The position numbers were made by a program, and so were the translations under genes. 64,000 nucleotides of DNA from Flavonifractor sp. An10 (GTDB taxonomy: Bacteria; Bacillota; Clostridia; Oscillospirales; Oscillospiraceae). Where the stretch lies: NCBI RefSeq assembly GCF_002161215.1, contig NZ_NFMB01000010.1:62001-126000 (forward strand). The letters are read 5' to 3'. The notes below the pieces were generated by a model. It did not search any database, was not told the DNA's origin, and was given only the letters and a program-made list of their open reading frames with translations. Shown in pieces: positions 19,945-34,490 of this stretch. Every line of letters starts with the position of its first letter. Positions within the stretch are counted from its first letter, which is position 1.

Positions 19945-20131
19945 AAAGCCTCGCAGAGTTCACGCCCGCAGGCGCGAACTCAGTTGGATCAGTTTTCGGC
20001 CGCGACACGCGCGTGGACGAAAACACCTCTCAGCACGCAAGCGTGGGTATTGGCCGCCGGAAGCGGCCAATACCTGCGCACAGCGGGCTGCAGCTTCCTC
20101 GTCCAGGCAGCCCTATGCTGCCTGGACGAAT
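19945..20131 (-). repeat. Structured interspersed element, copy A
   Basis: Lies between the response-regulator stop and nagB. Hairpins in order on the plus strand: TCGCAGAGTT block (19951-19960); CGCCCGCAGGCGCG; outer stem GTTTTCG (19992-19998) with CGAAAAC (20018-20024); GGTATTGGCCGC with GCGGCCAATACC (20046-20074); terminal stem TCGTCCAGGCAGC with GCTGCCTGGACGA (20099-20129). Copies B and C have the same order of elements with different but complementary stem sequences. This copy lacks the inner TTGCCCCGAAGGGGCAA module. Confidence 0.75.
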
Positions 20132-20818
20132 TCACTGGAACAGATGCTCCAGGTTCATCTGGCGGATCATCTTGACGATCTCCTTGGTGCGGGAGCAGCC
20201 GAACTTGTGCAGCAGGCCCTTGATCTGGGTCTTGACCGTCACCACCTCCACGCACCGGAGCCTGGCGATTTCGGCCACCTTCTTGTCCCGGAGCAGCAGC
20301 TTCACCAGCTCGTGCTCCGCAGGGGTCAGGTGGGCCACATTGTTGATGAAGAAGATCAGGGATCGCTCGCTGCGGCGCAGGCGGGCGTACTCCTGCATGA
20401 CGGTGTTCTGGATCTTGGGCTCCAGCTCCGCCCGGCCCTGGCTGGCCCGGCGGATGTGCTCCAGCAGCCGCTCCTCCTCACAGCCCTTGACCACATAGTC
20501 CACCGCGCCTGTGCCCATGGCGCTGGTGATCATGTCGTCGGTCTCGTGGGCGGTGAGGAAGATGATCTTGATGTCCGGATGGATGGCGGAGATAATCTCG
20601 GCGGCGCGGATGCCCGCGTCCACCGTCTCCATCTCGATGTCCATGAGGATCACGTCGCAGGGGGTGCTCCGCGCCAGGGCCACAATCTCGTCGCCGGTGG
20701 CGGCGGCGCCCACCACCTCCATGTCCTGCTGGGAGGACACCACGTCGCAGAAGTCCTCCCGCAGCAGGGGGAAGTCCTCCGCCACCATGACACGAATCGG
20801 TTTGTCCACGCCGTTCAC
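20132..20818 (-). CDS. Response regulator, receiver plus LuxR/NarL-type HTH
   Basis: 228 residues. Receiver domain (about 8-125): VMVAEDFPLL acidic pocket, VILMDIEME with the phosphoacceptor Asp near residue 59, and DYVVKG with the conserved Lys. C-terminal HTH (about 165-225): LTPAEHELVKLLLRDKKVAEIA, then VVTVKTQIKGLLHKFG. The GTG start overlaps the histidine kinase stop by 4 bases. Its 3' end runs directly into repeat copy A. It likely controls the ABC transporter upstream or the nagB operon downstream. Confidence 0.9.
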   Translation of the reverse strand: MNGVDKPIRVMVAEDFPLLREDFCDVVSSQQDMEVVGAAATGDEIVALARSTPCDVILMDIEMETVDAGIRAAEIISAIHPDIKIIFLTAHETDDMITSAMGTGAVDYVVKGCEEERLLEHIRRASQGRAELEPKIQNTVMQEYARLRRSERSLIFFINNVAHLTPAEHELVKLLLRDKKVAEIARLRCVEVVTVKTQIKGLLHKFGCSRTKEIVKMIRQMNLEHLFQ

Positions 20819-22323
20819 TCCTTCCTGCGGGGGTCGTAGACGGGGAGCATGATGAGGAAGCTGGCGCCCTGGCCCTCCCGGCTCTCCAGGCGCAGCTTGC
20901 CCAGATGGCTCTGGACGATCTTTCGCACATAGTACAGGCCCATGCCCCAGTTGTAGTTGGTATTCTTGCTGGTGAAGAAGGGCTCAAAGATCCTGCCCCG
21001 CTTCTCCGGAGGGATGCCGGGCCCGTTGTCCTCCACCGCCACCACCGTCCACATCCGCTCGGCCCGGATGCGCAGGGTGACGCGGGGCTCCTCCCGCCCG
21101 GCCTGGACGGCGGCCTCATACCCGTTGCACAGCAGGTTGCACACCGCCTCGCTGAGATGGCCCAGGTCGGCCAGCACGGGCCGGTCGGTGGACAGCTCCA
21201 CCTCCACCGGCTGACCGGGGTATTTGCCGTGGAACCGCTCCACCGCCGCCTGGGCCAGCTCTGCCGCCGGCACCGGCCGCAGGGAGATGGCGTTGTTCTT
21301 CACCGTGCGGTAGAGCTCGTCCATCCGCCGCAGCATGCCCTCGTTCAGCTCGTTGAGCTGAAGGGCGCAGGCCCGGGCCTGCGCCAGATCCGGCGGCTCC
21401 GCCGACAGGGCGCGGGAGAGCTTTTTGTGGAGCACCCGGCTGGACAGCAGCTGGTTCTTCACGCCGTGGACAAATACCGAGATGCCCATGCCGGCGGTGT
21501 CGAACTTCCGCTGGAGGATCATATCCTGCCGCTCGTCGTCATAGTTCAGCTGGGTGTAGCGCACCATGTTATAGCTGCCCAGGGCCACAAAGAACACCGT
21601 GCACAGCCCCAGCATCAGCCACCCCAGCGCGGGAAGGGTGGGGCTGATATAGCTGCTGATGCCCAGGCGGATGTACTCGGAGACGAACATGTTGTAGATC
21701 TGAGCGGGATCCTTGCTGGCGTAGAGCAGGTATAGTGCGGAAATGCTCACCACGGAGAGGAGGACATAGCGGAAATTGCGCTTGAAGGCGGGGAAGGTGT
21801 GGGCCCGGTACTCCAGGAACATAAGGGCGATGGCCACCGCCAGATAGAGGACAATCCAGCCAAAGCAGATGTTGACCATCACGGGGAGCAGCCACAGCCT
21901 GCCGTTGATCACCATCCGGAACACAGGCGGGTAATAGTAGACCAGGGACAGGACGGGGAACAGGAAGGAGAGCAGACGCAGCGTCCGCAGGTGCCGCCGC
22001 ACCAGGGAGATCATGGTGGTCTCCAGGGCGGCCTGGAGCACGAACAGCGGAAACAGGGAGCGGCCCACCGCCACCAGGTAGCCCAGCTTGCCCAGAGGGA
22101 TGGGAAGATCGTGCAGCCAGGTCTGGAGGCTTGGGAAGAGGAACAGCAGGGTGCGCTGCTGGGCGGCGGTGCCGCCGATGGCCGCGATATAGACGATGAT
22201 GCCCGCCAGCATGATCAGGTTGCACAGGCTCATGCCCAGCAGGTACAGGGACAGAGAGTCCTTTCGGCGCAGCGCCACATACAGGGACGTAGCCAGGCAC
22301 AAAATCAGCACCAATATCAGCAT
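20815..22323 (-). CDS. Membrane-bound sensor histidine kinase
   Basis: 502 residues from MLILVLILCLATS (GGAGGGA upstream); an earlier ATG at 22386 is possible but has no site. About seven membrane helices fill residues 1-265. The phosphoacceptor helix is HGVKNQLLSSRVLHKK (near 300). The ATPase domain has NLLCNGYEA (N box), VEDNGPGIPPEKRGRIFEPFFTSK (G1/F boxes) and NWGMGLYYVRKIV (G2). It is coupled to the response regulator and follows the taurine-type ABC genes on the same strand. Confidence 0.9.
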   Translation of the reverse strand: MLILVLILCLATSLYVALRRKDSLSLYLLGMSLCNLIMLAGIIVYIAAIGGTAAQQRTLLFLFPSLQTWLHDLPIPLGKLGYLVAVGRSLFPLFVLQAALETTMISLVRRHLRTLRLLSFLFPVLSLVYYYPPVFRMVINGRLWLLPVMVNICFGWIVLYLAVAIALMFLEYRAHTFPAFKRNFRYVLLSVVSISALYLLYASKDPAQIYNMFVSEYIRLGISSYISPTLPALGWLMLGLCTVFFVALGSYNMVRYTQLNYDDERQDMILQRKFDTAGMGISVFVHGVKNQLLSSRVLHKKLSRALSAEPPDLAQARACALQLNELNEGMLRRMDELYRTVKNNAISLRPVPAAELAQAAVERFHGKYPGQPVEVELSTDRPVLADLGHLSEAVCNLLCNGYEAAVQAGREEPRVTLRIRAERMWTVVAVEDNGPGIPPEKRGRIFEPFFTSKNTNYNWGMGLYYVRKIVQSHLGKLRLESREGQGASFLIMLPVYDPRRKE

Positions 22324-22399
22324 CCCCGCATCTCCCTCCTTTTGGGCCAGTGACATCATTATACCCGATCCCGCCCGGGGATGCAATTGAGCAGAAAGA

Positions 22400-22437
22400 G
22401 CGCCGGGGCTCCGCCATCAACACGGAGCCCCGGCGGG
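22400..22437 (-). terminator. Hairpin between the ABC operon and the histidine kinase
   Basis: Stem GCCGGGGCTCCG/CGGAGCCCCGGC, followed on the minus strand by GCTCTTTCTG. The T tract is weak, so partial read-through into the two-component genes is plausible. Confidence 0.55.
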
Positions 22438-22449
22438 ATCATCGGGGAT

Positions 22450-23532
22450 TTACTTGGCGGCGCTGTAGGCGTCGTAGGCCTCCTGCATCACGTCGAAGAG
22501 TACGTAGTTCTCCACGGGAACCTCCTCGGTGATGGTGCCGTTGTTCAGGAAAATACCCTGCTGGGTCTCATAAACGGTCTTGATGGCGTCCATGTCGCCG
22601 CAGACCTCAGTGATGGTCTGCCAGTCAGCCTCTCCAACGGCCGCCAGCATGGTCTCCTCAGGGGCGTCCAGCTCCCGGGCCAGCAGAGTGGCCATCTCCT
22701 CGGGGTGAGCGGCACGCCAGTCGTGGGCCTTGTCCAGAGCCTGGGCGAAGCGCACCAGGATGTCGTGGTTCTCCTCGGCATACTGGGGGGTGCAGATGTA
22801 GCTGGAGGGGAAGATGGCGCTGTCCAGGAAGTCGGCGTTGGTGCCCAGATCCACATAGTCATCGCCCAGAGCGTTCTGCAGGGTGATGGTGTTGGGAGAC
22901 CAGGAGGCGGCGGCGTCAATCTGGCCGGACACCATGGCGGTGGTCATGCCGTCCACGGTCATCTCCACGGTGTTGATGTCGTCCATGCTCATGCCGGCGC
23001 GGGCCAGGGCCTGCTGCAGAATGATCTCGGAAGAGGTGCCGGAGGACACGGCCACGGTCTTGCCGGCCAGATCCTCAATGGTCTCGATGCCGTGAGAGCG
23101 GTTGCCCACCACCACGTCGGACAGGGAGGTGGTGTGATCCATCTGGAAGATCACGGCCTGGCCCTGGATGCACAGGGAGTGGGCGCCGTGGCCGATCTGG
23201 GAGATGTCGATGTCGCCGGAGGCCATTGCGGCGATCTCAGCAGGGCCGCCCTGGAACTCGAAGGGCTCGACAGTCAGGCCGACCTCCTCGAAGTAGCCCT
23301 GCTCAATGCCCACAAACAGGGAGCCGGCGGAGCCCAGGTTGGGCATGTAGGCCACGCGGACGGTGGCGGGCTCATAGCTGGGGGTCTCGGACTCGGGAGC
23401 AGCGGTCTCGGTGCTGGCCGCGGGGGAGTCGGTGGCGGGAGCAGGGGACTCGTCGGTGGTGGTTCCGCCGCCGCAGGCGGCCAGGGACAGAGCCAGGCCC
23501 AGGGCCACGGCAAGAGAAAGCAGTTTCTTCAT
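22450..23532 (-). CDS. ABC transporter substrate-binding lipoprotein, NMT1/SsuA/TauA type
   Basis: 360 residues from MKKLLSLAVA. Lipoprotein signal with lipobox LAAC (cleavage before Cys20), then a Ser/Thr/Pro linker of about 40 residues, then the binding domain (VRVAYMPNLGSAGSLF, GDIDISQIGHGA, GKTVAVSSGTSSE, AAASWSPN). This cluster of periplasmic-type binding proteins carries sulfonates, nitrate, pyrimidine precursors and similar ligands. Together with the ATPase and permease upstream it forms a complete importer; the substrate is not determined. Confidence 0.9.
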   Translation of the reverse strand: MKKLLSLAVALGLALSLAACGGGTTTDESPAPATDSPAASTETAAPESETPSYEPATVRVAYMPNLGSAGSLFVGIEQGYFEEVGLTVEPFEFQGGPAEIAAMASGDIDISQIGHGAHSLCIQGQAVIFQMDHTTSLSDVVVGNRSHGIETIEDLAGKTVAVSSGTSSEIILQQALARAGMSMDDINTVEMTVDGMTTAMVSGQIDAAASWSPNTITLQNALGDDYVDLGTNADFLDSAIFPSSYICTPQYAEENHDILVRFAQALDKAHDWRAAHPEEMATLLARELDAPEETMLAAVGEADWQTITEVCGDMDAIKTVYETQQGIFLNNGTITEEVPVENYVLFDVMQEAYDAYSAAK

Positions 23533-23586
23533 AATGGTTCCTCCTTGTTGATTTTTGACGATCCGGCAGGGCCGGAGCAATCACGG

Positions 23587-24390
23587 TTACTTGCGCACAG
23601 ACAGATACTCCTGGTACACCTGGCTCCAGATGTGGTTCTTCAGCTCCAGGAAGCGGGGGCTCATCTTGGTCTCCTGATCGCGGGGGTAGGGGATGTCGAT
23701 GTCCACAATGTCCTTGACGCGGCCGGGGCGGGCGCACATGACCACCACACGCTGGGCCAGGATGATGGCCTCCTCCACGTCGTGGGTGATGAAGAAGCAG
23801 GTCTTCTGCTCCTTCTCCCAGGTGTTGAGCAGCTCCTGCTGCAGCTGGGTGCGGGTCTGGGCGTCCAGGGCGCCGAAGGGCTCATCCATCAGCAGCACCT
23901 TGGGGTTGACGGCATAGGCCCGGGCGATGGCCACGCGCTGCTTCATGCCGCCGGACAGCTCCTTGGGGTAGGACTTGGCGAAGCCCTCCAGATCCACCAT
24001 CTTCAGATACTTGCGGGCGGTCTCCTCGCACTCCTCCTTGCTCTTGCCCTGGAGCTTGAGGCCGAACTGCACGTTCTTCTCCACGGTGAGCCAGGGGAAC
24101 AGGGCGTACTGCTGGAACACGATGCCGCGGTCGGGGCCGGGGCCCTGCACGGGCTTGCCGTCCACCAGCACCTGGCCCTCAGTGGGGCTCTCCAGGCCGC
24201 CGATGATGTTGAGCAGGGTGGACTTGCCGCAGCCGGAGGGGCCCACCACGCACACAAACTCGTTCTCATGGATGTCCAGATCCACGCCGTTCAGGGCCAC
24301 CATCTCGCCGTTGCGGCCGTTGAACTTCTTGACCACGTGGTCAATATGTACCTTTACAGGGGCATTTACGCCTGAATTGTTTCCTGCCAT
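23587..24390 (-). CDS. ABC transporter ATP-binding protein, SsuB/TauB type
   Basis: 267 residues. Walker A GPSGCGKSTLL, Q loop VFQQYALFPW, signature ELSGGMKQRVAIARA, Walker B VLLMDEPFGALD and switch HDVEEAI. The sequence PSGCGKS and the short C terminus are typical of the nitrate/sulfonate/taurine group. Its start overlaps the end of the permease gene by 25 bases. Confidence 0.93.
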   Translation of the reverse strand: MAGNNSGVNAPVKVHIDHVVKKFNGRNGEMVALNGVDLDIHENEFVCVVGPSGCGKSTLLNIIGGLESPTEGQVLVDGKPVQGPGPDRGIVFQQYALFPWLTVEKNVQFGLKLQGKSKEECEETARKYLKMVDLEGFAKSYPKELSGGMKQRVAIARAYAVNPKVLLMDEPFGALDAQTRTQLQQELLNTWEKEQKTCFFITHDVEEAIILAQRVVVMCARPGRVKDIVDIDIPYPRDQETKMSPRFLELKNHIWSQVYQEYLSVRK

Positions 24391-25145
24391 CCCGTAAACC
24401 TCCTCTCCAGGAATTTCACGATCTTCTCAAAGCAGATGCCGATGATGCCCAGCAGGATGATGCCCATGAGCATTACATCCATCTGGTAGTAGCCGTTGGC
24501 CTGCTGGATCATCATGCCGATGCCCTTGTCGCCGCCCACGATCTCGGAGGCCATCAGGGTGGTCATAGAGGTGGACAGGCCCAGCCGGGCGGCCACCAGA
24601 ATGAAGGGGGTGGAGGCGGGGATGGTGATCTTGAAGAAGATGTCGCTCTGCTTGGCGCCCAGCACCCGGGCGGCCTTGATGAGGGTGGTGTCCACGCTCT
24701 TGACGCCCTGATAGATGGTGATGACCATCACCAGGAAGGCGGCGATGAAGATAACGGTGACCTTACTGACCTGACCGATGCCCAGGGCGGCGATGATCAG
24801 GAACACATAGGCCAGAGGGGGGATGTTGCGGATGAACTGGATCCAGGGCTCCACCACGTGGCGGAAGGGGTCATACCAGGCCATGAGGAAAGCCACCGGG
24901 ATGGATACCACAAAGGCAATCGCAAAGCCGGAGAGCACACGGGACAGACTGGCCCACACGTGACCCCACAGCACGCCGCTGGCCGCCTTGTCAATGAATG
25001 CGTCCAGCACCTGTTTCGGGGTGGCAAAGACAATCGGCCACAGGGTTGCGGCCACCAGCCACAGTGCGATTGCCACGCCCAGGGAGATGAGCAGCCATAC
25101 CCAGTTGGGTATCTTACTCCAGAATGACGATTTTTTTAGCTTCAT
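24366..25145 (-). CDS. ABC transporter permease, SsuC/TauC type
   Basis: 259 residues with about six membrane helices and the BPD_transp_1 coupling motif (AARVLGAKQSDIFFKITIPAS, EAA loop). It is the first gene of the permease-ATPase-binding protein operon, followed by the two-component genes. The promoter and a 23-bp dyad lie just upstream. Confidence 0.92.
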   Translation of the reverse strand: MKLKKSSFWSKIPNWVWLLISLGVAIALWLVAATLWPIVFATPKQVLDAFIDKAASGVLWGHVWASLSRVLSGFAIAFVVSIPVAFLMAWYDPFRHVVEPWIQFIRNIPPLAYVFLIIAALGIGQVSKVTVIFIAAFLVMVITIYQGVKSVDTTLIKAARVLGAKQSDIFFKITIPASTPFILVAARLGLSTSMTTLMASEIVGGDKGIGMMIQQANGYYQMDVMLMGIILLGIIGICFEKIVKFLERRFTGWQETIQA

Positions 25146-25172
25146 CGGAACCGAGCCTCCTTTGTTGTCCCC

Positions 25173-25221
25173 AGTATATCAGACTGCCCGGTTTTTCAAA
25201 GTATGAACTTTTATCATACTT
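25173..25221 (-). promoter_or_regulatory. Promoter and palindromic operator of the taurine-type ABC operon
   Basis: On the minus strand, -10 TATACT (25173-25178) and a -35 candidate TTGAAA (25194-25199, spacer 15, or the one-base-shifted TTTGAA with 16). Overlapping its upstream edge is a perfect 8-bp dyad AAGTATGA-7 bp-TCATACTT (25199-25221), a likely regulator site. Confidence 0.6.
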
Positions 25222-25237
25222 TTCTCCAAGGCGGAGA

Positions 25238-25267
25238 GCCCCGGCCGGAGATGTCTCCGGCCGGGGC
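25238..25267 (-). terminator. Hairpin after the phosphofructokinase gene
   Basis: A 14-bp stem GCCCCGGCCGGAGA/TCTCCGGCCGGGGC with a two-base loop, 17 bases after the stop. There is no T tract, so it may act as a 3' stabiliser rather than a full terminator. Confidence 0.5.
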
Positions 25268-25283
25268 CCTGTGTGTATCTGCA

Positions 25284-26441
25284 TCAGAGCAGCCGCGCCA
25301 TGTGGGGCAGCTCCGGCCCGATGAGGGGCCGGCACCAGTCCACAAATTCCTGCGTCACGTCGGTGCCTCCGGCGCTGAGGTACTCCGGGGGCAGCACCCG
25401 CTCCCCCAGCATGACCTCCTCGATGGGGATCAGGAAGGTCTCGCACCGGTAGGGGGCGGAGGACAGGCGGCGGAAGCCCACCATCTTGCCCGTCTCGCCG
25501 GCCAGGGCGGCCCGGCAGGCCGCGCGCCCCGCCTCCTCCGCCTCGGCGGCGTCCACCGGGGACTGCCAGGCGATGGATGCCCGGGCCAGGATGCCCGGCT
25601 TCTCGCTGCGGGCCTTGATGCCCAGCCGCCGCACCACCATCTGGGCCAGGTGGGAGGACACGTCCCCGAAATAGGTGGAGCGCCCGGTCTGGAAGATGGG
25701 GGGCACGATGGGCTTGCCCGCCTCGTCGTGGAGGCCCTCGCTGGCCACCACGATCACGCCGCCCAGCCTGTCATAGAGGGCCTTCACCTCGTCCAGGAAC
25801 TCCTCCTCGTGGAAGGGCCGCTCCGGCGGGTAGATCAGGTGGGGGCCGTCGCCCCCCTGCTCCCGGGCCAGGGCGGAGGCCGCCGTCGTCCAGCCGGCGT
25901 TGCGGCCCAGGGCCTCCAGCACCACCACATGGATAGGCAGGCTGCGCACGTCCACCGCCAGCTCCCGCACGGTGCCCGCCATGTACCGGGCCACGCTGCC
26001 GAAGCCGGGGCAGTGGTCGGTGACGGCGATGTCGTTGTCCATGGTCTTGGGGATGCCCATAACGGAGATGCCCCTGCCCCTGCAGGCCGCCGCCAGCTTG
26101 CCGCAGGCGTCCATGGTGCCGTTGCCGCCGTTCATGAGCACGTAGCGGATGTGCTTCTCCGCCAGGATGTCCGCCATGCGGGCGTAGTCCTCCGCCTCCA
26201 GGGCGTCCCGGGAGGTGCCGATGGCGGTGGCGGGGGTGCGGGGGAGCCGCTCCAGCTCCTCCTCCGGCACGGTGCCGAAGTCCAGCAGGTTTTCCCGCAG
26301 CAGGCCGCCGGTGCCGCCGATGGCGCCGTAGACGTGCTCCACCGCGCCGCTCTGCTGCGCCTCCCGGATGGCTCCGTACAGGGAGCAGTTGAGCACGGCG
26401 GTGGGGCCGCCGCCGTGGATGATGACCAGATTGTCCTTCAA
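25284..26441 (-). CDS. 6-phosphofructokinase family protein (possibly PPi-dependent)
   Basis: 385 residues from a TTG start (MKDNLVIIHGG) with GAGGAGGGG 6 bases upstream; a frame opening at 26468 begins upstream of that site and is less likely. Fold markers: IHGGGPTAVLN, NGGNGTMDACGKL, GIPKTMDNDI, FGSVARYMAG, EALGRNAGWTTA and VVASEGLHDE. Lys in the P-K-T-M-D-N-D motif is typical of pyrophosphate-dependent enzymes, but the other discriminating site has Gly (as in ATP enzymes) next to an Asn in place of Asp. The phosphoryl donor is therefore uncertain. It is transcribed alone. Confidence 0.85.
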   Translation of the reverse strand: MKDNLVIIHGGGPTAVLNCSLYGAIREAQQSGAVEHVYGAIGGTGGLLRENLLDFGTVPEEELERLPRTPATAIGTSRDALEAEDYARMADILAEKHIRYVLMNGGNGTMDACGKLAAACRGRGISVMGIPKTMDNDIAVTDHCPGFGSVARYMAGTVRELAVDVRSLPIHVVVLEALGRNAGWTTAASALAREQGGDGPHLIYPPERPFHEEEFLDEVKALYDRLGGVIVVASEGLHDEAGKPIVPPIFQTGRSTYFGDVSSHLAQMVVRRLGIKARSEKPGILARASIAWQSPVDAAEAEEAGRAACRAALAGETGKMVGFRRLSSAPYRCETFLIPIEEVMLGERVLPPEYLSAGGTDVTQEFVDWCRPLIGPELPHMARLL

Positions 26442-26549
26442 GGGGATCCCCTCCTCGTTTTGATCCAAAATCCCATGATATCCTTTATTATACCCGGGCC
26501 GTTCCCGCCCCGCAAGGAGGATTTCCCATCATACCTTTTCAGCGGACGC

Positions 26550-26579
26550 AAAAGCGGCGCGCTATCCGGCGCGCCGCTT
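26550..26579 (-). terminator. Terminator after repeat copy B
   Basis: Stem AAGCGGCGCGC/GCGCGCCGCTT followed by TTTT on the minus strand. It lies downstream of prmA plus repeat copy B, so the repeat is within the 3' end of the prmA transcript. Confidence 0.6.
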
Positions 26580-26589
26580 GGCAAGAAAG

Positions 26590-26809
26590 CCTCGCAGAGT
26601 TTTGCCGCCCGCAGGCGGCAAAAAGATTAAAAATTCCTTCCTTTCCGGGGACACAAGGCGAATTGCCCCGAAGGGGCAAGAGAGGGCCCCCTGGGGGGTG
26701 CGCCTCGGAAAGGACTCTTCTCACGCCGGACAGCGTGACAATCGCCCCGCAATCGAGCGCTTTCCGGCGTGCAGGCTCATTCAAAAAAGTGACAGAGTCA
26801 CTTTTTTGA
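26590..26809 (-). repeat. Structured interspersed element, copy B
   Basis: Same order of elements as copies A and C: CTCGCAGAGT block (26591-26600), CCGCCCGCAGGCGG hairpin, outer stem CCTTTCCG (26640-26647) with CGGAAAGG (26706-26713), enclosing the conserved ACACAAGGCGAATTGCCCC-GAA-GGGGCAA hairpin and AGGGCCCCCTGGGGGG, then a gene-side terminal stem TCAAAAAAGTGAC/GTCACTTTTTTGA (26781-26809). The terminal stem overlaps the last codons and stop of prmA. Confidence 0.8.
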
Positions 26810-27739
26810 GGCTAAGGCCACCCAGCCGTTCTGCTCCCGCCGCTCGAACACATGCAGGCCGTTTTTCTCCAGGGCGGCCTGCACCTCGTCGGCCCGGGTG
26901 TCGATGATGCCGGAGCACAGGAACACCCCGTCCTCCGTCAGGAAGTCCCCCGCTTTAGCGGACAGGGGGATGATCACGTCGGCCACGATGTTGGCCAGCA
27001 CCAGGGCGTACTTTCCCGTCCCCAGCCGGCTGACCAGATCCTGATCGGACAGTACGTCGCCGGCCAGCACGGTGTAGCGATCCCTTCCGATGCCGTTGAG
27101 GGCGGCGTTCTCATAGGCCACGTCCACCGCCTTGGGGTCGATGTCCACCGCCATGGCCTCCGACGCCCCAAGAGCCAGGGCGGCGATGGACAGGATGCCG
27201 CTGCCGCAGCCCAGATCCAGCACCGGCTGCCCGGGGACGGTATAGGCCTCCAGTCCCGCCAGGCACAGCTGGGTGGATGCGTGGTTGCCGGTGCCGAAGG
27301 TGAGACCGGGGTTCAGGTACAGGGGCACCTTCCCCGCCGGCACGGGCTCCCCCCGCTCCCACTCGGGCACGATGTAGAGCCGCTCCCCCACGGCCATGGG
27401 CTTGTAGTACTTCTGCCAGGAGTGGGCCCAGTCGTTCTCCCCCAGGGAGGCGGCGGTGTAGGGCAGGTCGATCCCCTCCAGCCAGCGCGCCAGCTGCTTT
27501 TTCCCGTCGTCATCGTCGGTGACGTAGAGCTTCACCCGGCACACGCCGCGCATCTGCTCCATCAGGCCCTCGTCCACATAGTCCCAGTACTGGCGGTTCT
27601 GCTCCAGGAAGGTCTTGAAGTCCTCCTCGTCCTCGATGGCCATGCCGGTGACGCCGTTGGCGGTGAGGCGGGCGCACAGGCCCTCCAGCTCCTCCTCGGT
27701 GGTGTCCAGCACCACCTCCAGCCACTTGATATCCTCCAT
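26798..27739 (-). CDS. prmA: Ribosomal protein L11 methyltransferase
   Basis: 313 residues, standard length. N-terminal L11-recognition domain (about 1-120), then the SAM-dependent methyltransferase: LTFGTGNHASTQLCL (PrmA signature, with N-H-A-S for the usual T-H-P-T), PVLDLGCGSGILSIA (motif I) and VLANIVADVI (NPPY-equivalent ANI). It trimethylates L11. Its stop codon is inside the hairpin that ends repeat copy B. It is coupled to the DegV gene by a TGATG junction. Confidence 0.93.
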   Translation of the reverse strand: MEDIKWLEVVLDTTEEELEGLCARLTANGVTGMAIEDEEDFKTFLEQNRQYWDYVDEGLMEQMRGVCRVKLYVTDDDDGKKQLARWLEGIDLPYTAASLGENDWAHSWQKYYKPMAVGERLYIVPEWERGEPVPAGKVPLYLNPGLTFGTGNHASTQLCLAGLEAYTVPGQPVLDLGCGSGILSIAALALGASEAMAVDIDPKAVDVAYENAALNGIGRDRYTVLAGDVLSDQDLVSRLGTGKYALVLANIVADVIIPLSAKAGDFLTEDGVFLCSGIIDTRADEVQAALEKNGLHVFERREQNGWVALASKK

Positions 27740-28611
27740 CAGCGCTTGCTCCCCAGGAAGAACAGGGCCACGGTGCCGGGGCCGGAGTGGGCGCCGATGA
27801 CGGGGCCCACGTTGTTGAGCACAACCTGCTCCACCCCAAAGCGGCGCTTCACGTCGTCGGCCACCTTCTGCGCGTCCTCCAGGCAGTCGCCGTGGCTGAT
27901 GAACACCACCTGGCTGCCCGGGTCGATGGCGGTCTCCTCCATGTGGTTCACCAGGGCCTTGAGGGATGCGTTGCGGCCCCGGGCGGTGCCCACCTTCACC
28001 AGGCGGCCCTCGTCGTCCACGTGCATCACCGGCTTGATGGACAGCATGGTGCCCACCACGGCGGTGGCGGGAGAGATGCGCCCGCCCCGCTTGAGGAAGT
28101 GGAGATCATCCACGGTGAACCAGTGGCACAGGTGGAGCTTGTTGTCCTCCAGCCAGTCCCGCACCTCCTCCATGCTCTTCCCCTGGGCCTTCATCCGGGC
28201 GGCGTACCACACCAGCAGGCCCTGCCCCAGGGAGGCGCACAGGGAGTCCACCACCCAGATCTTCCGGTCGGGATACTGCTCGGACAGCTCCTGGGCGGCG
28301 ATCTGGGCGGAGTGGCAGGTGGCGGACAGGCCGGAGGAGAAGGCGATAATCAGCACATCCCTCCCCGCCTGCACCAGGGGCTCCACCGCCTCGGTGTAGT
28401 CGGAGACGTTGACGGCGGAGGTGGTGGCCGTCTCCCCCGCCCGCAGCCGCCGGTAAAAGTCCTTCGGGTCGATCTCCCGGTTGTCCGGCCAGTTCCGGTA
28501 GGTCTTGTCCCCCATGTGGAAGGACAGGGGGAGCACCTCCACCCCCAGCTCCGCCACCAGCTCCGCGGTGAGATCCGCCGACGAATCAGTCAACAGGACG
28601 TAATCACTCAT
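27739..28611 (-). CDS. DegV-family fatty-acid-binding protein (FakB-like)
   Basis: 290 residues from MSDYVLLTDSSADLT (DSSAD motif that helps hold the carboxylate). Other family blocks: IIAFSSGLSATCHSA, VVDSLCASLGQGLLV, HFLKRGGRISPATA, and VFISHGD. DegV/FakB proteins present a fatty acid to the kinase FakA; a FakA homologue is encoded at 30148-31845. The gene is first of a degV-prmA unit; GGAGG lies 10 bases before the chosen start. Confidence 0.9.
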   Translation of the reverse strand: MSDYVLLTDSSADLTAELVAELGVEVLPLSFHMGDKTYRNWPDNREIDPKDFYRRLRAGETATTSAVNVSDYTEAVEPLVQAGRDVLIIAFSSGLSATCHSAQIAAQELSEQYPDRKIWVVDSLCASLGQGLLVWYAARMKAQGKSMEEVRDWLEDNKLHLCHWFTVDDLHFLKRGGRISPATAVVGTMLSIKPVMHVDDEGRLVKVGTARGRNASLKALVNHMEETAIDPGSQVVFISHGDCLEDAQKVADDVKRRFGVEQVVLNNVGPVIGAHSGPGTVALFFLGSKR

Positions 28612-28654
28612 CAAACCATAACCTCCAGTATTCACACGTACTTGTCACAACAGG

Positions 28655-29182
28655 CTATTTCTTCCCCTTTTCCGGCTGGGGACGCCGCTCTCGCAGCAGC
28701 TCCAGCAGCCGCTGGCAGGCCAGGCGGTCGGCGTAGCTGCGCAGAGCCAGGGCCAGGGCCAGGCCGGGCAGCTCCTCCTCCCCGTCGGTGGCGTCCAGGC
28801 TGCCCGCCGTCACGTCCAGGGCCCGATCCAGTTCCTCCCGGAACTGCTCATACAGCTCCCGGGGCTCCCGCCCCTCCGACGCCGCGGCCAGCAGCAGGCC
28901 CGCGTCCTTTACGGACAGCACCTGCTTGAGGGCGCACAGGGCGGTGAGATAGGCCAGATGGGTGCGGGAGTACCGCTTGCCCTCCGCCCGGGGCATGGCC
29001 CCGTCCTTGATGTAGTTGTTGACCATGGCGGAGGTGAGGCTCTCCCCCTCCCCATAGCGGATGAGCTGCCGGGGCATATAGGAGATGAGCTGATCCATAT
29101 ACAGCCCGATGTCGGGCAGAGCCTCCCACTCCACGGGCCGCTCCCCCTCCAGGCGCTCCTTCAGTTCGCGGATCTCCTCCAA
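28655..29182 (-). CDS. DUF1836 domain protein
   Basis: 175 residues. The segment RYGEGESLTSAMVNNYIKDGAMPR followed by KRYSRTHLAYLTALCALKQVLS is the DUF1836 winged-helix-like core, common in Clostridia and Bacilli, probably DNA binding by analogy with MerR-type heads. No effector domain is visible. It precedes degV by 43 bases and may be co-transcribed. Confidence 0.8.
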   Translation of the reverse strand: MEEIRELKERLEGERPVEWEALPDIGLYMDQLISYMPRQLIRYGEGESLTSAMVNNYIKDGAMPRAEGKRYSRTHLAYLTALCALKQVLSVKDAGLLLAAASEGREPRELYEQFREELDRALDVTAGSLDATDGEEELPGLALALALRSYADRLACQRLLELLRERRPQPEKGKK

Positions 29183-29280
29183 CGCCGCCCCTCCTTTCTG
29201 GTTTTGAAAATGATGCCATAGAATGTTGCCGTCATTATATCACATTGCCCACGGGGAAGTAAAGGCCATCCGGGCATGAA

Positions 29281-29327
29281 AAAAGCCCGGCGGAGTCACA
29301 TAACAAAATTATGTGACTCCGCCGGGC
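29281..29327 (-). terminator. Strong terminator after the small membrane protein gene
   Basis: A 19-bp perfect stem (29286-29304 with 29309-29327) followed on the minus strand by six T. It separates the 65-residue membrane protein from the DUF1836 gene. Confidence 0.88.
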
Positions 29328-29339
29328 TGCGGCCGGGTG

Positions 29340-29537
29340 TTACAGCTCCCAGTCGGCGTAATCCTCCGCCTCGGCATCGCCGTCGGCCCGCACCTTCAGC
29401 GCGTCGGGCAGCATGGTCTTGATCCTGGCCACCACGGCCATGATCTTGTCCCAGTAGAGCACAGCGGCGTAGAGCAGGGCGCTGATCACCGCCAGCGCGG
29501 CCACCAGCTTTACCAGAGCGCAGATCAATTTCTTCAT
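29340..29537 (-). CDS. Small single-span membrane protein, unknown function
   Basis: 65 residues. A basic start (MKKLICALVKLVAALAV) leads into one membrane helix (about 8-30), followed by a short amphipathic stretch and an acidic tail (DGDAEAEDYADWEL). AAAGGAGG precedes the start, and a strong terminator follows. The tail pattern resembles small uncharacterised proteins of Oscillospiraceae, but I do not recognise a family. Confidence 0.7.
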   Translation of the reverse strand: MKKLICALVKLVAALAVISALLYAAVLYWDKIMAVVARIKTMLPDALKVRADGDAEAEDYADWEL

Positions 29538-29647
29538 AAGCCGAAAGCCTCCTTTGTCCAGGTCTCCTGGATCGGTTGTTCTCAGTTTACACGCTTCCGC
29601 CCCAAATTACAAGGGCCCGCCCCCACTTTCAGAAAACTTTTTTTCCC

Positions 29648-29676
29648 TTGTAATTTCGCCTGAAATAGAATACAAT
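29648..29676 (+). promoter_or_regulatory. Promoter of the asp23-fakA operon
   Basis: TTGTAA (29648-29653), 17-bp spacer, TACAAT (29671-29676), 84 bp upstream of the first start codon. Confidence 0.65.
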
Positions 29677-29759
29677 AAGAGGACAAAAGGCAGCCAAACC
29701 GCCCCAGCTTCAGCGGGTATCCGCTGGTATTCTCCCACGGAAAGGAAGGGATCAGCCAA

Positions 29760-30110
29760 ATGAGGCTTCAAACCGAAAAGGGCGAGATCACCATCAGCAG
29801 CGACGTTTTCACCAACATCACCGGCGCGGCGGCCACCAACTGCTACGGCGTCAAGGGCATGGCCATGCGCTCCAAGACCGACGGCCTGGTGCATCTGCTG
29901 CGCCGGGAGTCCATGGGAAAGGGCGTCAAGATCACCTATCACGACGACTCCTCCGTCTCCATCGAGCTGCACATCATGGTGGACAACGGGGTCAACCTGA
30001 TGGCGGTGAGCCGCTCCATCATGAGCGAGGTTCGCTATATCGTCAGCCGCACCACCGGCGCCGAGGTGCGCAGCGTGGATGTGTGCATCGACTCCATGGT
30101 CATCGGCTGA
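29760..30110 (+). CDS. Asp23/Gls24-family protein
   Basis: 116 residues with the family core: GEITISSDVFTNITGAAATNCYGVKGMAM and a C-terminal half with SVDVCIDSMV. These small alkaline-shock-type proteins sit on the membrane or bind the cell envelope. In Firmicutes a member of this family usually precedes the fakA (DAK-like kinase) gene, as here, with a 37-base gap. Confidence 0.9.
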   Translation: MRLQTEKGEITISSDVFTNITGAAATNCYGVKGMAMRSKTDGLVHLLRRESMGKGVKITYHDDSSVSIELHIMVDNGVNLMAVSRSIMSEVRYIVSRTTGAEVRSVDVCIDSMVIG

Positions 30111-30147
30111 ACCGGCCCTTGCCCATCGAAAGGAAGGAACAACAGAC

Positions 30148-31845
30148 ATGAGAGAGAGCATTGACGGAGCGTCCTTTGCCCAGGCAGTGATCCATGCGGC
30201 GGCCTCCCTCAATCTGCGCAAGCAGGAGATCAACGAGCTGAACGTCTTCCCCGTGCCCGACGGGGACACCGGCACCAACATGAGCCTGACCATCGGCACC
30301 GCCGCCACGGAGCTGCGCAAGAAGCAGCCCCGCACCGTGGGCGAGGCCGCGTCCACCACCGCCTCCGCCCTGCTGCGGGGCGCCCGGGGCAACTCCGGCG
30401 TGATTCTGTCCCTCCTGTTCCGCGGCCTGTCCAAGGCCGTGAAGGACAGGGACACCATCGACGGCCGGGATTTGGCCATCGCCCTGGACTTCGGCGTGGC
30501 CGCCGCTTACAAGGCGGTGATGAAGCCCGCCGAGGGCACCATCCTCACCGTCTCCCGGCTGGCCGCCGCCAAGGCGGCCGACGCCGCCCGGCAGACCCCC
30601 AACGATCCGGAGGCCGTGCTGGCCGCCGCCATCGCCGAGGGCCAGCTGGCCCTGGAGCACACCACCGAGATGAACCCCGTGCTGAAAAAGGCCGGGGTGG
30701 TGGACGCCGGCGGCAAGGGCTTCCTGGTGATCCTCCAGGGCATGCTGGACTCCCTGCGTGGGGAGCCCATGCCGGAGGAGGAGGGCGGTTCCGGCGCCGC
30801 TTCGGAGCAGAAGACCGACTACGCCGCCATCGCCGCCGAGGAGATCACCTTCACCTTCGACACGGTGTTCATCGTGCGCAAGACCGACCCCCACAAGGGG
30901 CTGGAGGCCTTTGAGGCCTATCTGAACAGCATCGGCGACAGCCTGGTTATCGGCGAGGACGACGACTGCTTCAAGGTTCACGTCCACACCGACATCCCCG
31001 GCGCCGCCCTCACCGAGGCCCAGAAGTACGGCACCCTGGAGCTGGCCAAGATCGAGAACATGCGCACCCAGGCGGAGGATCTGGCCGCCGGGCGGCACAT
31101 CCAGAGCACCGACGATCTGGACGCGGTGGAGGCCGAACTGGAGGGGGAGCCCGCCCCCGGCGGCCGGAAGATCGCGGCGCCGGAGAAGAAGTACGGCGTG
31201 GTGGCGGTGGCGGCCGGCGACGGCCTGGCCGCGGTGTTCAAGGATCTGGGGGCCGACGGCGTGATCAGCGGCGGCCAGACCATGAACCCCTCCACCGACG
31301 ACATCCTCCGGGAGATTGACGCCACCCCGGCGGAGATCGTCTTTGTCCTGCCCAACAACAAGAACATCATCATGGCCGCCGAGCAGTGCATCCGCCTGGT
31401 GGAGGGCAAGCAGGTGGTGGTGCTCCCCACCAAGACGGTGCCCCAGGGCATCTCCGCCCTGATGGTGATGGATCCCGAGGCGGACACCGAGGCCAATGTC
31501 CAGGCCATGCAGGAGGCCCTGAGCCGGGTGCACACCTCGGAGATCACCTACGCCGCCCGGGACAGCGACTTTGACGGCTTTGCCATCAAGCGGGGGGACT
31601 ATCTGGCCCTCACCGAGCACCAGCTCTTCGGCACCGACCGGAAGGTGGAGAAGCTGCTGCGCCGCCTGGCGGAGGCCGACAACCAGCAGAACGCCGAGTT
31701 CATCAACATCTTCTACGGGGAGGACGTGACGGAGCGGGAGGCCCAGAAGGCCCTCAAGCTCTTCACCGAGTGCTGCCCCAATGCGGAGATCACCCTGCTC
31801 TCCGGCGGGCAGCCGGTGTACTACTACATGATCTCCGCCGAGTAA
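30148..31845 (+). CDS. fakA: Fatty acid kinase A (DhaL-domain kinase)
   Basis: 565 residues from MRESIDGASF with GAAAGGAAGG upstream. N-terminal DhaL ATP domain: NELNVFPVPDGDTGTNM with the Mg-binding Asp residues, and RGARGNSGVILS; a central linker; C-terminal DegV-like half with VVAVAAGDGLAAVF and FVLPNNKNI. FakA phosphorylates fatty acids bound to DegV/FakB proteins for entry into phospholipid synthesis. The start overlaps no upstream gene, and a terminator follows. Confidence 0.92.
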   Translation: MRESIDGASFAQAVIHAAASLNLRKQEINELNVFPVPDGDTGTNMSLTIGTAATELRKKQPRTVGEAASTTASALLRGARGNSGVILSLLFRGLSKAVKDRDTIDGRDLAIALDFGVAAAYKAVMKPAEGTILTVSRLAAAKAADAARQTPNDPEAVLAAAIAEGQLALEHTTEMNPVLKKAGVVDAGGKGFLVILQGMLDSLRGEPMPEEEGGSGAASEQKTDYAAIAAEEITFTFDTVFIVRKTDPHKGLEAFEAYLNSIGDSLVIGEDDDCFKVHVHTDIPGAALTEAQKYGTLELAKIENMRTQAEDLAAGRHIQSTDDLDAVEAELEGEPAPGGRKIAAPEKKYGVVAVAAGDGLAAVFKDLGADGVISGGQTMNPSTDDILREIDATPAEIVFVLPNNKNIIMAAEQCIRLVEGKQVVVLPTKTVPQGISALMVMDPEADTEANVQAMQEALSRVHTSEITYAARDSDFDGFAIKRGDYLALTEHQLFGTDRKVEKLLRRLAEADNQQNAEFINIFYGEDVTEREAQKALKLFTECCPNAEITLLSGGQPVYYYMISAE

Positions 31846-31861
31846 GCCGCAGGAGACCAGC

Positions 31862-31902
31862 AAAATACCGCCCCGGCTGTTGCAGCCGGGGCGGTATTTT
31901 TT
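31862..31902. terminator. Bidirectional terminator between fakA and the nucleotidase gene
   Basis: Stem AAAATACCGCCCCGGCT/AGCCGGGGCGGTATTTT with further T on the plus side. It serves the two convergent genes. Confidence 0.88.
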
Positions 31903-31935
31903 GCTGGTTCAGCTCTCTGCTCCGGGGGCGGCCGC

Positions 31936-34092
31936 TCAGCTCAGGGTGCCGTTGACATCCTGGGGATTCAGGATGGTGATGCGTCCCTCCACGGCGGGGG
32001 CGACGGTGCCCTGCTCCTGGATGTACTGGGAGATCACGGTGCGGTAGTAGTCGTTGGTGCGGTACACCAGGCGGCAGCCGGGCAGCTCCTGGGCGGCCGT
32101 CTCGCTGTTGGAGGAGGCGCCGTCGGGGTTGAGCACGTTGAGCATGGTGTACCCGTCGCCGCCGCCGCACATGAAGTCGTTGCAGGCCAGGGTGTACCAG
32201 GCATCCAGATCCAGGGGGGTGCCGTCGGCCATGGTGACGGAGACAATGCGCTCGCCGGCGGGCTTGGAGGCGTCAAAGGTGTACTGGATGCCGGAGACCT
32301 GGGGGAACTTGCCGTTGAGCTCGGGATAGGCGTCCACGCCGTTCTCCAGGGCGTCCCACACGGTCTGGCCGGTGACCTCCACCAGGGTGACCTTGTTGTC
32401 AAAGGGCAGCATGCCGAAGATGTCGCCCACGGTCACGTCGCCGGCGGTCAGGCCGGCCCGGATGCCGCCGCCGTTCTGGATGGCGATGTCGGCGTCACAG
32501 TAGTCCCGCAGGGCGTCGGCGGCCAGGTTGCCCAGGGGGCTCTCCTGGGCGCGGACAAGGGCGCTGGACCAGGGGATGTCGGAGGCGCACTGTCCGATGA
32601 CCACATCCATCTGGGCGTCCAGATCCGCCTGGTAGTCGGCGATGATGGCGCTGACCTCGGGATCCTCGGGCACGTCGGAGGAGAGGATGATCTGGTTGAA
32701 GGTGTAGCCCAGCAGCTCCCCGTCCTTCACGTTCAGGTTGGTCTGGTTGACGCAGGTGCCCACGCCGCCGGGGTTGACCACCACGGTGCCCTCGATGTTC
32801 AGGGGGCGGCCGAAGGTGTCGTTGCCGCCGCCGATCTCCATGTCGATGCCGTCAATGCGGGTGGGAACCTCGTTGTTGGCGCCGTGGAGATGCGCCAGCA
32901 TGATGACCAGATCGGCCTCCGCGTTGGCCTGATCCACCACCTGCTGGCCCACCTCCCAGTGGTCGTGGAACTCGATGTCCTGGGTGTTGGAGTAGTGGGT
33001 GGTGGCCTTGCTGCCGTCGTCGGTCAGGCCCACGATGGCCACCTTCAGGCCGCCCACCTCCTTGACGATGTAGGGCTCAAACTGCTCGGGGTAGGTGCCG
33101 TCCTTCCAGTAGGTGTTGGCGGAGAGCATGGCGTACTCGGCCCGCTCCGCCAGGGAGAGCAGGTTGTCAAAGGCGTAGTCGAAGTCGTGGTTGCCCAGCA
33201 CGGTGGCGTCATAGCCCTGGGCGTTCATCACGTCCACGCTGGACTGGCCCTGGGACATGTTGGCCAGGTCGGTGTTGTAGGGGGAGTCGCCGCCGTCCAG
33301 CACCAGGGTGTTGGGGTTGCGGCGCTCGGCCTCGTCAAAGAGCCAGGCCGCCTTGGCGGAGCCGCCCACCTCGATGCTGGAGCCGGAGGGGGTGTAGGGC
33401 ACCATGTGGCCGTGGATGTCGGAGGTGGACATGGTGGTGATGATGGTCAGATCCTTGACGGCGGTGTCCAGCACATAGGCCGCCTCCCCCCGGGTGATCA
33501 CCGTGTTGTCCAGGGTCAGGCCGGCGGGCAGCAGGCCGTCCTCCGCGCCCTGGGCCAGGAAGTCCATGTCCTTGTCGGCGCCGTAGACCGCCTTCATCAC
33601 CGCCAGGGCGAACTCGGCGCGGGTCATGGTCTGCTCACCGCGGAACTCCCCGTCGATCTGATCCATGAGGCGGGCCTCCAGCACGGTGTTGGCCGCCGTC
33701 TCCGCCCAGGTGTCCACGGCGTCGGGGGCGGCGGGCATGAGCACCGCGTCCAGGGTGGCCACGGTGGTGTCGGTGGAATAGAACTGCTTGGTCACCGGCT
33801 CGGGCATGGTGCCGTCCTCATTGGCCTCGGGGGCGGGGGCCTCCATGGAGAACACGGGAACCAGGTCAAAGGCCTCATACAGCAGGGAGGCCGCGGCGGA
33901 ACGGGTCAGGGGGTCGTCGGGGCGGTAGGCGCCGGTGCCGTCGCCCCGGATGATGCCCTCTTCGGCCAGGCGCTGGATGCTCTCGGCATAGGTGCCGGAG
34001 GCGTCGCTGACCGAGGCGGCGGAGGCCGGCACAGCCAGGGACAGGCTGACTGCCGCGGCCAGCGCCAGGGCGGAAATACGGAAGTGCTTCAT
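31936..34092 (-). CDS. Secreted 5'-nucleotidase/UshA-like phosphoesterase with SLH domains
   Basis: 718 residues from MKHFRISALA (AAGGAG upstream). Signal peptide cleaved after about residue 26 (PASA). Two S-layer homology-like segments follow: IQRLAEEGIIRGDGTGAYRPDDPLTRSAA and the region with MTRAEFALAVMKAV, with a third partial one. The catalytic half has STSDIHGHM, DGGDSPY, LGNHDFDY and MLAHLHG (metal sites); the C-terminal 5'-nucleotidase domain has NGGGIRAGL and the GGGDGY adenine-stacking segment. It would hydrolyse extracellular nucleotides at the cell surface. Confidence 0.9.
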   Translation of the reverse strand: MKHFRISALALAAAVSLSLAVPASAASVSDASGTYAESIQRLAEEGIIRGDGTGAYRPDDPLTRSAAASLLYEAFDLVPVFSMEAPAPEANEDGTMPEPVTKQFYSTDTTVATLDAVLMPAAPDAVDTWAETAANTVLEARLMDQIDGEFRGEQTMTRAEFALAVMKAVYGADKDMDFLAQGAEDGLLPAGLTLDNTVITRGEAAYVLDTAVKDLTIITTMSTSDIHGHMVPYTPSGSSIEVGGSAKAAWLFDEAERRNPNTLVLDGGDSPYNTDLANMSQGQSSVDVMNAQGYDATVLGNHDFDYAFDNLLSLAERAEYAMLSANTYWKDGTYPEQFEPYIVKEVGGLKVAIVGLTDDGSKATTHYSNTQDIEFHDHWEVGQQVVDQANAEADLVIMLAHLHGANNEVPTRIDGIDMEIGGGNDTFGRPLNIEGTVVVNPGGVGTCVNQTNLNVKDGELLGYTFNQIILSSDVPEDPEVSAIIADYQADLDAQMDVVIGQCASDIPWSSALVRAQESPLGNLAADALRDYCDADIAIQNGGGIRAGLTAGDVTVGDIFGMLPFDNKVTLVEVTGQTVWDALENGVDAYPELNGKFPQVSGIQYTFDASKPAGERIVSVTMADGTPLDLDAWYTLACNDFMCGGGDGYTMLNVLNPDGASSNSETAAQELPGCRLVYRTNDYYRTVISQYIQEQGTVAPAVEGRITILNPQDVNGTLS

Positions 34093-34202
34093 GTCTGGGG
34101 TCTCTCCTTTCATCTCTGCGCGGGCGGGCCAGTCCGCCCGCATATCTGCATTGTAGCACAGCCGCCCCGCCGCCACAAGTAAAGTTCCTGTAATCGGACT
34201 GT

Positions 34203-34234
34203 AAAAAAAGGCCGCCCGGCTTCGCCGGACGGCC
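34203..34234 (-). terminator. Terminator after repeat copy C
   Basis: Stem GGCCGTCCGGC/GCCGGGCGGCC (one mismatch) followed on the minus strand by seven T. It ends the amino-acid ABC operon after repeat copy C. Confidence 0.8.
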
Positions 34235-34237
34235 CTC

Positions 34238-34490
34238 AGCGTGTCGAAAAGGTCTCACAGAGTTCGCGCCCGCAGGCGCGAAAAAATGGGAATCTGTTTT
34301 CTCCGGCGACACAAGGTGAATTGCCCCGAAGGGGCAAGAGAGGGCCCCCTGGGGGGTGTGCGTCGGAGAAAACACTTCTCAGGCCGCAAGTGTGGGATTT
34401 GTCCGCCTGAAGCGGACAAATCCTGCGCGCGGCGGACTGCATCCTGCTCGAAAAAGCGGCAAAGCCGCTTTTTCGACAGTCTCAGGGCGG
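34238..34490 (-). repeat. Structured interspersed element, copy C
   Basis: Same order of hairpins as copies A and B: CTCACAGAGTT block; CGCGCCCGCAGGCGCG; outer stem GTTTTCTCCG (34296-34305) with CGGAGAAAAC (34364-34373) around the TTGCCCC-GAA-GGGGCAA hairpin and AGGGCCCCCTGGGGGG; GGATTTGTCCGC with GCGGACAAATCC (34395-34423); terminal stem TCGAAAAAGCGGC/GCCGCTTTTTCGA (34448-34476). The left edge is the AGCGTGTCGAAAA motif also seen at 11027 and 51231. Confidence 0.82.

Follow-up and report, generated by a model that had tools for sequence, protein, structure and literature searches.

Are folded repeats that recur behind bacterial genes kept as RNA or spread as DNA? The question is raised by three elements, here called A, B and C, in a 64,000-nt stretch of Flavonifractor sp. 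An10 (contig NZ_NFMB01000010.1, positions 62,001 to 126,000 of the forward strand), which we call the window. A first-pass annotation, made from the sequence alone, had noted that the elements share a conserved core and the order of their parts while their paired stems differ in complementary ways, and it proposed a selected RNA structure rather than a decaying repeat. We judge it probable (about 0.75) that A, B and C are miniature, non-coding mobile elements of ~180-230 nt, moved by IS1182-type transposition into terminators. They belong to a new family that resembles miniature inverted-repeat transposable elements (MITEs) and carries a structured cassette, the RNA function of which is unproven.

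The elements, their family and their fold

The features on which the argument rests are the following; model matches refer to contig C2 of the own genome (G000), in which the window lies.

19945..20130, minus strand: element A, short form, inverted repeats not clear (model match C2:81945-82129)
26550..26579, minus strand: terminator-like hairpin beyond B (sequence)
26586..26809, minus strand: element B, subfamily-II-like long form, at the prmA stop (model match C2:88586-88809)
26654..26698, minus strand: 45-nt module in B, the same as in C (sequence and window self-comparison)
34203..34234, minus strand: terminator hairpin with T run beyond C (sequence)
34235..34251, plus strand: terminal inverted repeat of C, CTCAGCGTGTCGAAAAG (pattern scan, one mismatch)
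34249..34476, minus strand: element C, long form of subfamily I, behind the gene for an ABC-transporter ATPase (model match C2:96249-96476)
34312..34356, minus strand: 45-nt module of C, within the P4 apical loop and missing from the short form; many BLAST hits break at query 136/182
34469..34485, minus strand: terminal inverted repeat of C, CTGAGACTGTCGAAAAA (exact pattern match), overlapping hairpin H0

Re-reading the window bore out the sequences and stems reported for the three elements, as well as their position 3' of minus-strand genes, which code for a response regulator (A), prmA (B) and an ABC-transporter ATPase (C); in A, hairpin H0 begins directly behind the response-regulator stop (20132-20134). 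A terminator or the next gene had been placed beyond each element, and, indeed, a terminator-like hairpin comes after both B (run of 4 T) and C (run of 7 T), while A is located in an operon gap with no terminator-like hairpin after it. On the opposite side of C, at ~34485-34494, there is a partial copy, GGGCGGCCC, of its terminator hairpin. The core described for B and C, ACACAAGG..GGGGCAA, is also present and corresponds to the ~45-nt module that one hairpin (P4) carries in its apical loop; this module is missing from A and from most family copies inspected. Additionally, three occurrences of the 3' motif AACTCTGYGAGRC, with no more than one mismatch, were counted in the window, where 0.20 were expected; none of 100 shuffles had three.

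A, B and C are members of a large family and not isolated RNAs. A BLAST search with C gave 76 matches in the own genome. The covariance-model search of relatives that the first-pass annotation had proposed was carried out with a model, R1, built from 16 own-genome copies; in that genome it returned 133 matches at E<=0.01, many of them partial or on the opposite strand; 74 matches reach 58 bits, and a single copy, split by another element, accounts for two of them. Matches were found in 23 of the 60 genomes searched (the own genome being counted among both), with 0 to at least 44 matches per genome in the genus and 84 (E<=1e-6) in G042, a genome from another family of the same order. An exact pattern scan of GTDB contigs yielded at least 114 stretches, corresponding to 80 loci, and all 80 hold an R1 match at E<=1e-6. 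These loci are mostly titled Oscillospiraceae, Ruminococcaceae or unplaced Clostridia, and the genera include Flavonifractor, Pseudoflavonifractor, Intestinimonas, Oscillibacter, Sporobacter and Papillibacter, among others. Two subfamilies are seen among the copies, I and II, of which II is larger and more homogeneous and has a middle that reads CATGGCGGAAGGG..CCCTTCCGCCATG. The element core, ~180-230 nt long, is non-coding, and a transposase would not fit in it. Partial copies (74-79% identity) also occur in four human-faecal phage records (MT836333.1, MT835961.1, MT838551.1 and MT837098.1), in which prophage and host DNA are not distinguished.

When A, B and C are aligned in the minus-strand sense, they show one common architecture. 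In sense order, hairpin H0 is followed by helix P1, which encloses hairpin P2, and then by P3 (in subfamily I), P4, an A/T-rich linker, P5 and AACTCTGCGAGGC, the conserved 3' end of the element. H0 reads TCGAAAAAGYGGC..GCCRCTTTTTCGA in recent copies, P3 is a short pseudoknot helix (CACTT/AAGTG) and P4 is a hairpin whose apical loop is short and which contains a 1x1 mismatch. The fold of C has a z-score of -8.0 when read from the minus strand; the plus strand gives -8.3. In the 16 copies from this genome, standard pairs fill 95.8% of the pair cells, and both partners vary in 27 of the 56 pairs, where shuffled alignments give 10.7; none of 500 shuffles attains the pairing fraction or the number of both-side changes. 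Sliding the partners by one to three columns lowers pairing to 39-53%, and RNAalifold independently found 55 pairs, 28 of them with double changes. The complementary stem changes that had been claimed are, thus, real, and the covariation goes beyond that of column-shuffled alignments. No pair of P3 has a double change, and the support for the pseudoknot comes from conservation and from a small number of changes on one side. The mismatch in P4 is itself conserved, as 180 of 240 hairpins have A.C in the sense reading; on the opposite strand it reads G.U, the main alternative there being A-U (31/240). Alignment A2 was also made, with subfamily II, long-form and interrupted copies excluded. By eye, six copies (L013, L016, L120, L121, L123 and L125) carry an extra GC-rich module inside the P5 hairpin, and another (L126) has a different insert, in P4. 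At the gathering cut-off, Rfam matched just one tRNA in the whole window and no element, and at E<=1 its two matches in seven loci were both off the elements.

Empty sites, terminal repeats and duplicated terminators

Comparison with relatives shows that the family has moved over evolutionary time, and its copy number varies widely between related genomes. In two relatives that are ~85% identical to the own genome in this region (G014 and G015), the site of A is empty, with the stop codon and the ribosome site almost adjacent. A simple terminator stands in place of B in G014, and the G015 stretch compared for B is not syntenic. C has no clean empty site because the neighbouring gene for an SLH/5'-nucleotidase-domain protein (window 31936-34176) is also missing from both relatives. 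At four further loci, one hairpin in the relatives corresponds to hairpin-element-hairpin in the own genome, a single terminator without the element being found for L095 and L034 in G014 and G015, for L032 in G002, G016 and G014, and for L112 in G002 and G016. L095 is the clearest of them, as the hairpin in G014 is recognisably the same terminator; at L032, L034 and L112, the single terminator of the relatives differs in sequence from that of the own genome. Other comparisons were uninformative because of longer, different spacers (L033, and L032 in G006), had an unusable second flank (L031, L101, and L032 in G015 and G018) or gave no flank pair in relatives (L108, L036 and L113).

Copies between cistrons tell a similar story. 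L041, L115, L092 and L052 were empty in all relatives read (4, 3, 3 and 1, respectively), and the gap at L041 (pstB-phoU) is as short as 12 nt in relatives. When six intercistronic copies were looked up in seven relatives, the site was empty in all seven for L041 and L092, in six for L115 (G014 being ambiguous) and L051 (present in G014), in five for L050 (present in G006 and G016) and in at least three for L052. Furthermore, the subfamily found in the argR-recN gap is not the same in G000 as in G006, a sign of independent insertion. The names fabH, fabK, pstB, phoU, argR and recN, as used here, were assigned by eye from sequence.

Many copies have been shown to share inverted repeats with an insertion sequence (IS) of the IS1182 family and to lie between two copies of one terminator hairpin. 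With up to one mismatch allowed, the end pattern CTSAGNNTGTCGAAAAA was found 43 times in each orientation (backward control: 0 forward and 1 reverse), and many of its sites belong to a second family, F2, and not to the R1 family. In a genus-level set of 119 copies, where flank duplication was called at a score of at least 30, the 3' repeat score was passed by 71 copies against 9 of 117 control stretches, and flanks were duplicated in 45 copies against 21 of 3000 mismatched pairs. Among these 45, 42 also carry the 3' repeat and 39 have a self-complementary duplicated stretch, that is, a hairpin. In the own genome, duplicated flanks were found in 22 of 62 copies, all 22 with the 3' repeat (L040, L091, L097 and L100 are weak), and in six copies (L032, L035, L042, L059, L060 and L109) the second hairpin fits better inverted, by at least 6 points. 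A wider Oscillospirales set, for which the 85 of 95 rows that hold the 3' motif were used, gave duplicated flanks in 35 of 78 and the inverted repeat in 39 of 78, among the matches listed.

The candidate partner is an IS1182-family element of the own genome (L188, G000:C10), which has the ends TTCAGCCTGTCGAGAAA and TTTTTCGACAGCCTGAA and lies between two near-identical terminator-like hairpins. A relative of it in G006 (L185) has the same kind of ends and lies between two identical hairpins. The inverted repeats of both are 1-3 mismatches away from the CTSAGNNTGTCGAAAAA pattern, and their proteins score 370 bits (L188) and 401 bits (L185) with the NCBIfam IS1182 model (cut-off 270 bits). No R1 match was listed at L188. 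The same is seen with F2, one copy of which lies in the window:

10895..11060, plus strand: copy of the second family F2, with no R1 match and the same kind of inverted repeats

It is flanked by terminator hairpins (10868-10894 and 11062-11089) with inverted loops (TTT/AAA), and elsewhere in the genome F2 copies also have similar ends and duplicated terminators and are not matched by R1. In summary, the elements have several features expected of a MITE: they are small and non-coding, with terminal inverted repeats, a target duplication and a partner with the same ends (L188, L185). With regard to IS1182-type targeting, the target is likewise a stem-loop or terminator, but it is not replaced without duplication.

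From the ends and the targets, we infer that movement was at least partly by IS1182-type transposition. The transposase would act in trans on the inverted repeats of the element, and joining at the feet of the terminator hairpin, followed by fill-in, would copy the whole hairpin. Insertion at gene 3' ends would do little harm, which may explain accumulation there, and upstream transcripts would then carry the hairpin array as a 3' untranslated region (UTR), with H0 being terminator-like by itself in recent copies. Two things would keep the fold: correction of hairpins at the DNA level and, with less certainty, some function of the array once transcribed, for instance in 3'-end protection or termination.

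Several observations weigh against this explanation. The enzyme is deduced from ends and targets, and not from observed transposition. Neither inverted repeat nor duplication was found in 45 of the 119 genus-level copies, and of 30 copies from G042, three pass the inverted-repeat score and one passes the duplication score of 30. No terminator or stem-loop stands at the sites of A and other operon copies. Of four PF13751 matches in the own genome, L188 alone has both ends, L192 has one and L184 and L191 have none. In addition, a profile search did not find PF13751 in the carriers G002, G004, G005, G008 and G042, and found it solely below the cut-off in G003. Those without it have 84 family matches at 98% completeness (G042), 19 at 99% (G002), 7 at 99% (G004), 36 at 89% (G005) and 40 at 79% (G008). 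The partner may have been lost or missed there, or another enzyme may act, and the nearly complete carriers G002 and G004 weaken the IS1182 explanation.

Movement by a Y1/HUH transposase, as with REP elements, is very improbable. Hairpin-ended elements suit such enzymes, and Y1_Tnp has 12 matches in the own genome, being also present in G002, G008, G016, G023 and G030 (profile search); however, no Y1_Tnp match was found in G014 or in G042, with its 84 family matches, and inverted repeats with hairpin duplication fit IS1182. Other candidates were discarded. An IS481-like IS in L174 (G000:C8:190391-193867) lies inside an F2 element and, by eye, has its own ends and a 23-bp duplication; it sits in an F2 hairpin and scores 194.9 bits, below the NCBIfam cut-off of 224. 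An IS4-like fragment in L166 and zinc-ribbon/nuclease-like open reading frames (ORFs) by an IS-end hairpin (L175/L181), all named by eye, are merely neighbours. Also by eye, L181 5301-7358 (G000:C8) is a long zinc-ribbon-like ORF with atypical codon use near an IS1182-end-like hairpin.

RNA or DNA as the keeper of the fold

Selection on a sense RNA predicts that G-U is tolerated over A-C in stems. Under strand-neutral scoring of the aligned rows with the 3' motif (166 of 185), the hairpins have 18 GU and 25 AC on the sense strand, whereas 136 terminators from the same DNA have 23 GU and 8 AC (p = 0.011; elements versus terminators, Fisher p = 0.009). With 85 copies added (251 in all), the counts were 37 GU and 66 AC in distinct hairpins (p = 0.006), and 27 and 44 in distinct contexts (p = 0.057). 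Consequently, the sense-strand excess of G-U that was expected in element stems was not found in the 166 or the 251 copies. The sole sense-leaning count comes from model-fitted alignments, with two opposite-strand partial matches excluded (60 GU and 36 AC raw; 44 and 33 by cluster, p = 0.25), and it takes in poorly aligned P1/P2 columns of subfamily II. A raw GU:AC count of 11:58, for which those two matches were likewise excluded, was discarded because it was inflated by the fixed P4 mismatch.

The pattern of changes was read by comparing each copy with its nearest one, which, in subfamily II, gave 29 double changes as against 17 single ones over 945 pair cells and, in subfamily I, 33 double as against 45 single ones over 1300, with 8-10% divergence at unpaired sites. 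Transversions make up 13/29 and 12/29 of the Watson-Crick double changes in the two subfamilies (41-45%), and transversion double changes cannot pass through G-U. Loop inversions inside elements were too few for a test. The lack of a G-U excess, together with the double-change pattern, means that covariation alone does not prove RNA function here. Thus, of the selected RNA structure first proposed, the conserved fold and the paired changes stand, but selection on the sense RNA finds no support in the G-U test, and DNA processes fit as well. What the first-pass annotation missed is that the family is a mobile repeat, with empty sites, IS1182-like ends and target duplication.

Most copies follow a gene that is read in the same sense. 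In the own genome, the upstream gene is in the sense of the element in 57 of 68 copies (both neighbours are opposed in 9), 26 of 68 begin 0-8 nt behind the sense stop codon, and tandem gene contexts are sense in 28 cases and antisense in 9. The gene calls are approximate and come from a caller trained on nine Pfam-supported genes, which replaced a first one, trained on the longest ORFs, that favoured antisense frames. The sense bias is weaker in the wider set: among the 64 copies with flanks of at least 500 nt, the end of a sense gene upstream was the only one seen in 25 and the end of an antisense gene downstream the only one in 14, while 18 copies had the two together and 7 lacked them.

A host function for the sense hairpin/pseudoknot array, as a cis-acting or stable RNA in the 3' UTR whose mobility would merely be its means of spread, is a serious possibility that falls somewhat short of even odds. 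In its favour are the covariation in the 16 copies and the sharing of ends by F2 and the IS1182 element with no R1 match, by which the fold seems unnecessary for movement. Moreover, the fold is found mostly without inverted repeats in G023, G030 and G042, where the inverted-repeat score was passed by 1/5, 1/10 and 3/30 copies, respectively. The fabH-fabK copy, present in G000, G014 and G006, is 95.2% identical between the first two, above the adjacent coding DNA (84.6% and 91.0%) and the spacer (87.5%); it is 76-77% identical with G006, below the coding DNA (82-89%). Against such a function, the six intercistronic copies are mostly empty in seven relatives, no Rfam match falls on the elements, and the G-U excess is lacking (18:25 versus 23:8 in terminators; 27:44 in distinct contexts). 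It is rather unlikely that the paired changes come from DNA processes alone, that is, from template switching, palindrome inversion and hairpin exchange between copies, with zero selection on RNA. Double changes do rival or exceed single ones, with many transversions (13/29, 12/29), the P2 hairpins of orthologous fabH-fabK copies, GGCGAAGCC and GGCTTCGCC, are exact reverse complements, and flanking terminators are sometimes inverted copies. There is also a published precedent, as the excerpts of PMC8794818 describe that template switching can create and maintain such stems. However, DNA processes alone leave unexplained the unpaired motifs conserved across genera, the conserved P4 mismatch (A.C in 180/240) and the pseudoknot helix, which is no simple palindrome.

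Should the structured strand be the opposite one (plus in the window), as RNA or single-stranded DNA antisense to the upstream gene, the G-U bias there (66 versus 37 in distinct hairpins of the 251 copies, p = 0.006) would find an explanation. The P4 mismatch reads G.U on that strand, with A-U as the main alternative (31/240), and H0 of recent copies would be a 3' terminator. Nevertheless, we consider this quite improbable, as the bias is not significant by distinct contexts (p = 0.057), no promoter was seen by eye and loops of the UNCG type, which are stable, lie mostly on the sense strand (by eye). Returning to IS1182-type mobile elements, ends occur without the fold (F2, the IS), the fold occurs without the repeats (G023, G030, G042) and the P4 mismatch is kept; therefore, the fold appears to be maintained by something other than the transposition ends. 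A doubtful but attractive extension is that the transposon lineage carries a structured RNA cassette with a job of its own, e.g., 3'-end protection, attenuation or antitermination at the host gene. If true, selfish insertion into terminators would have placed a single regulatory RNA module at dozens of genes, with the host retaining some of the copies, e.g., fabH-fabK.

Known systems and other repeats in the window

Among the literature matches listed, no published description of the family was recognised. According to the excerpts of PMC4923244 and PMC5678879, IS1272, of the IS1182 family, targets stem-loops, including terminators, and removes the target stem-loop with no duplication. A hypothetical "pathway b" is drawn in the excerpt of PMC5678879, whereby a join at the 5' feet would lead to two copies of the entire stem-loop, and the duplicated flanks described here fit that outcome. 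The inverted flank copies are unexplained by this pathway and suggest hairpin inversion during repair. The family is like IS1182/IS1272, as those excerpts present them (PMC4923244, PMC5678879), in the DDE transposase of the partner (NF033551), the hairpin or terminator target and several insertions immediately behind genes; by contrast, the whole hairpin is duplicated here and not deleted, and the elements are without a transposase. Bacterial MITEs, as far as the excerpt of PMC10969869 describes them, are also short and non-coding, with terminal inverted repeats, target duplication, a partner IS and folded transcripts, but here the duplicated target is a whole terminator and the internal fold is conserved across genera, also without inverted repeats. 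Per the same excerpt (PMC10969869), BOX, RUP and SPRITE of Streptococcus pneumoniae are, likewise, small folded intergenic repeats with nested insertion. Their host group is different, and the comparison is one of descriptions, not of sequences. REP/BIME elements, associated with RAYT, are palindromes behind genes, a position shared by the family described here, which is much larger and multi-hairpin, and no Y1 enzyme was found in G042.

The elements could provide cases from nature in which an IS1182-type element duplicates its entire stem-loop target, an outcome merely drawn as possible in the excerpt of PMC5678879. Strong covariation without RNA-like strand asymmetry calls for caution when RNAs are sought in palindromic mobile DNA. 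The family also places one common 3'-UTR module behind dozens of gut-bacterial genes, at which any effect on expression could be tested.

Another palindrome in the window resembles H0:

51229..51275, strand not assigned: H0-like 47-bp palindrome between two different terminators (51198-51308), with a partial R1 match of 32 bits

It looks like a minimal element or a remnant. Two 218-bp tandem copies, 96% alike, lie at 45535-45970 and include, in reverse orientation, a stretch 84% similar to the 45-nt module shared by B and C. Finally, 39134-39846 consists of GC-rich tandem repeats of ~198 bp, with copies 96% and 66% like the first and a partial copy.

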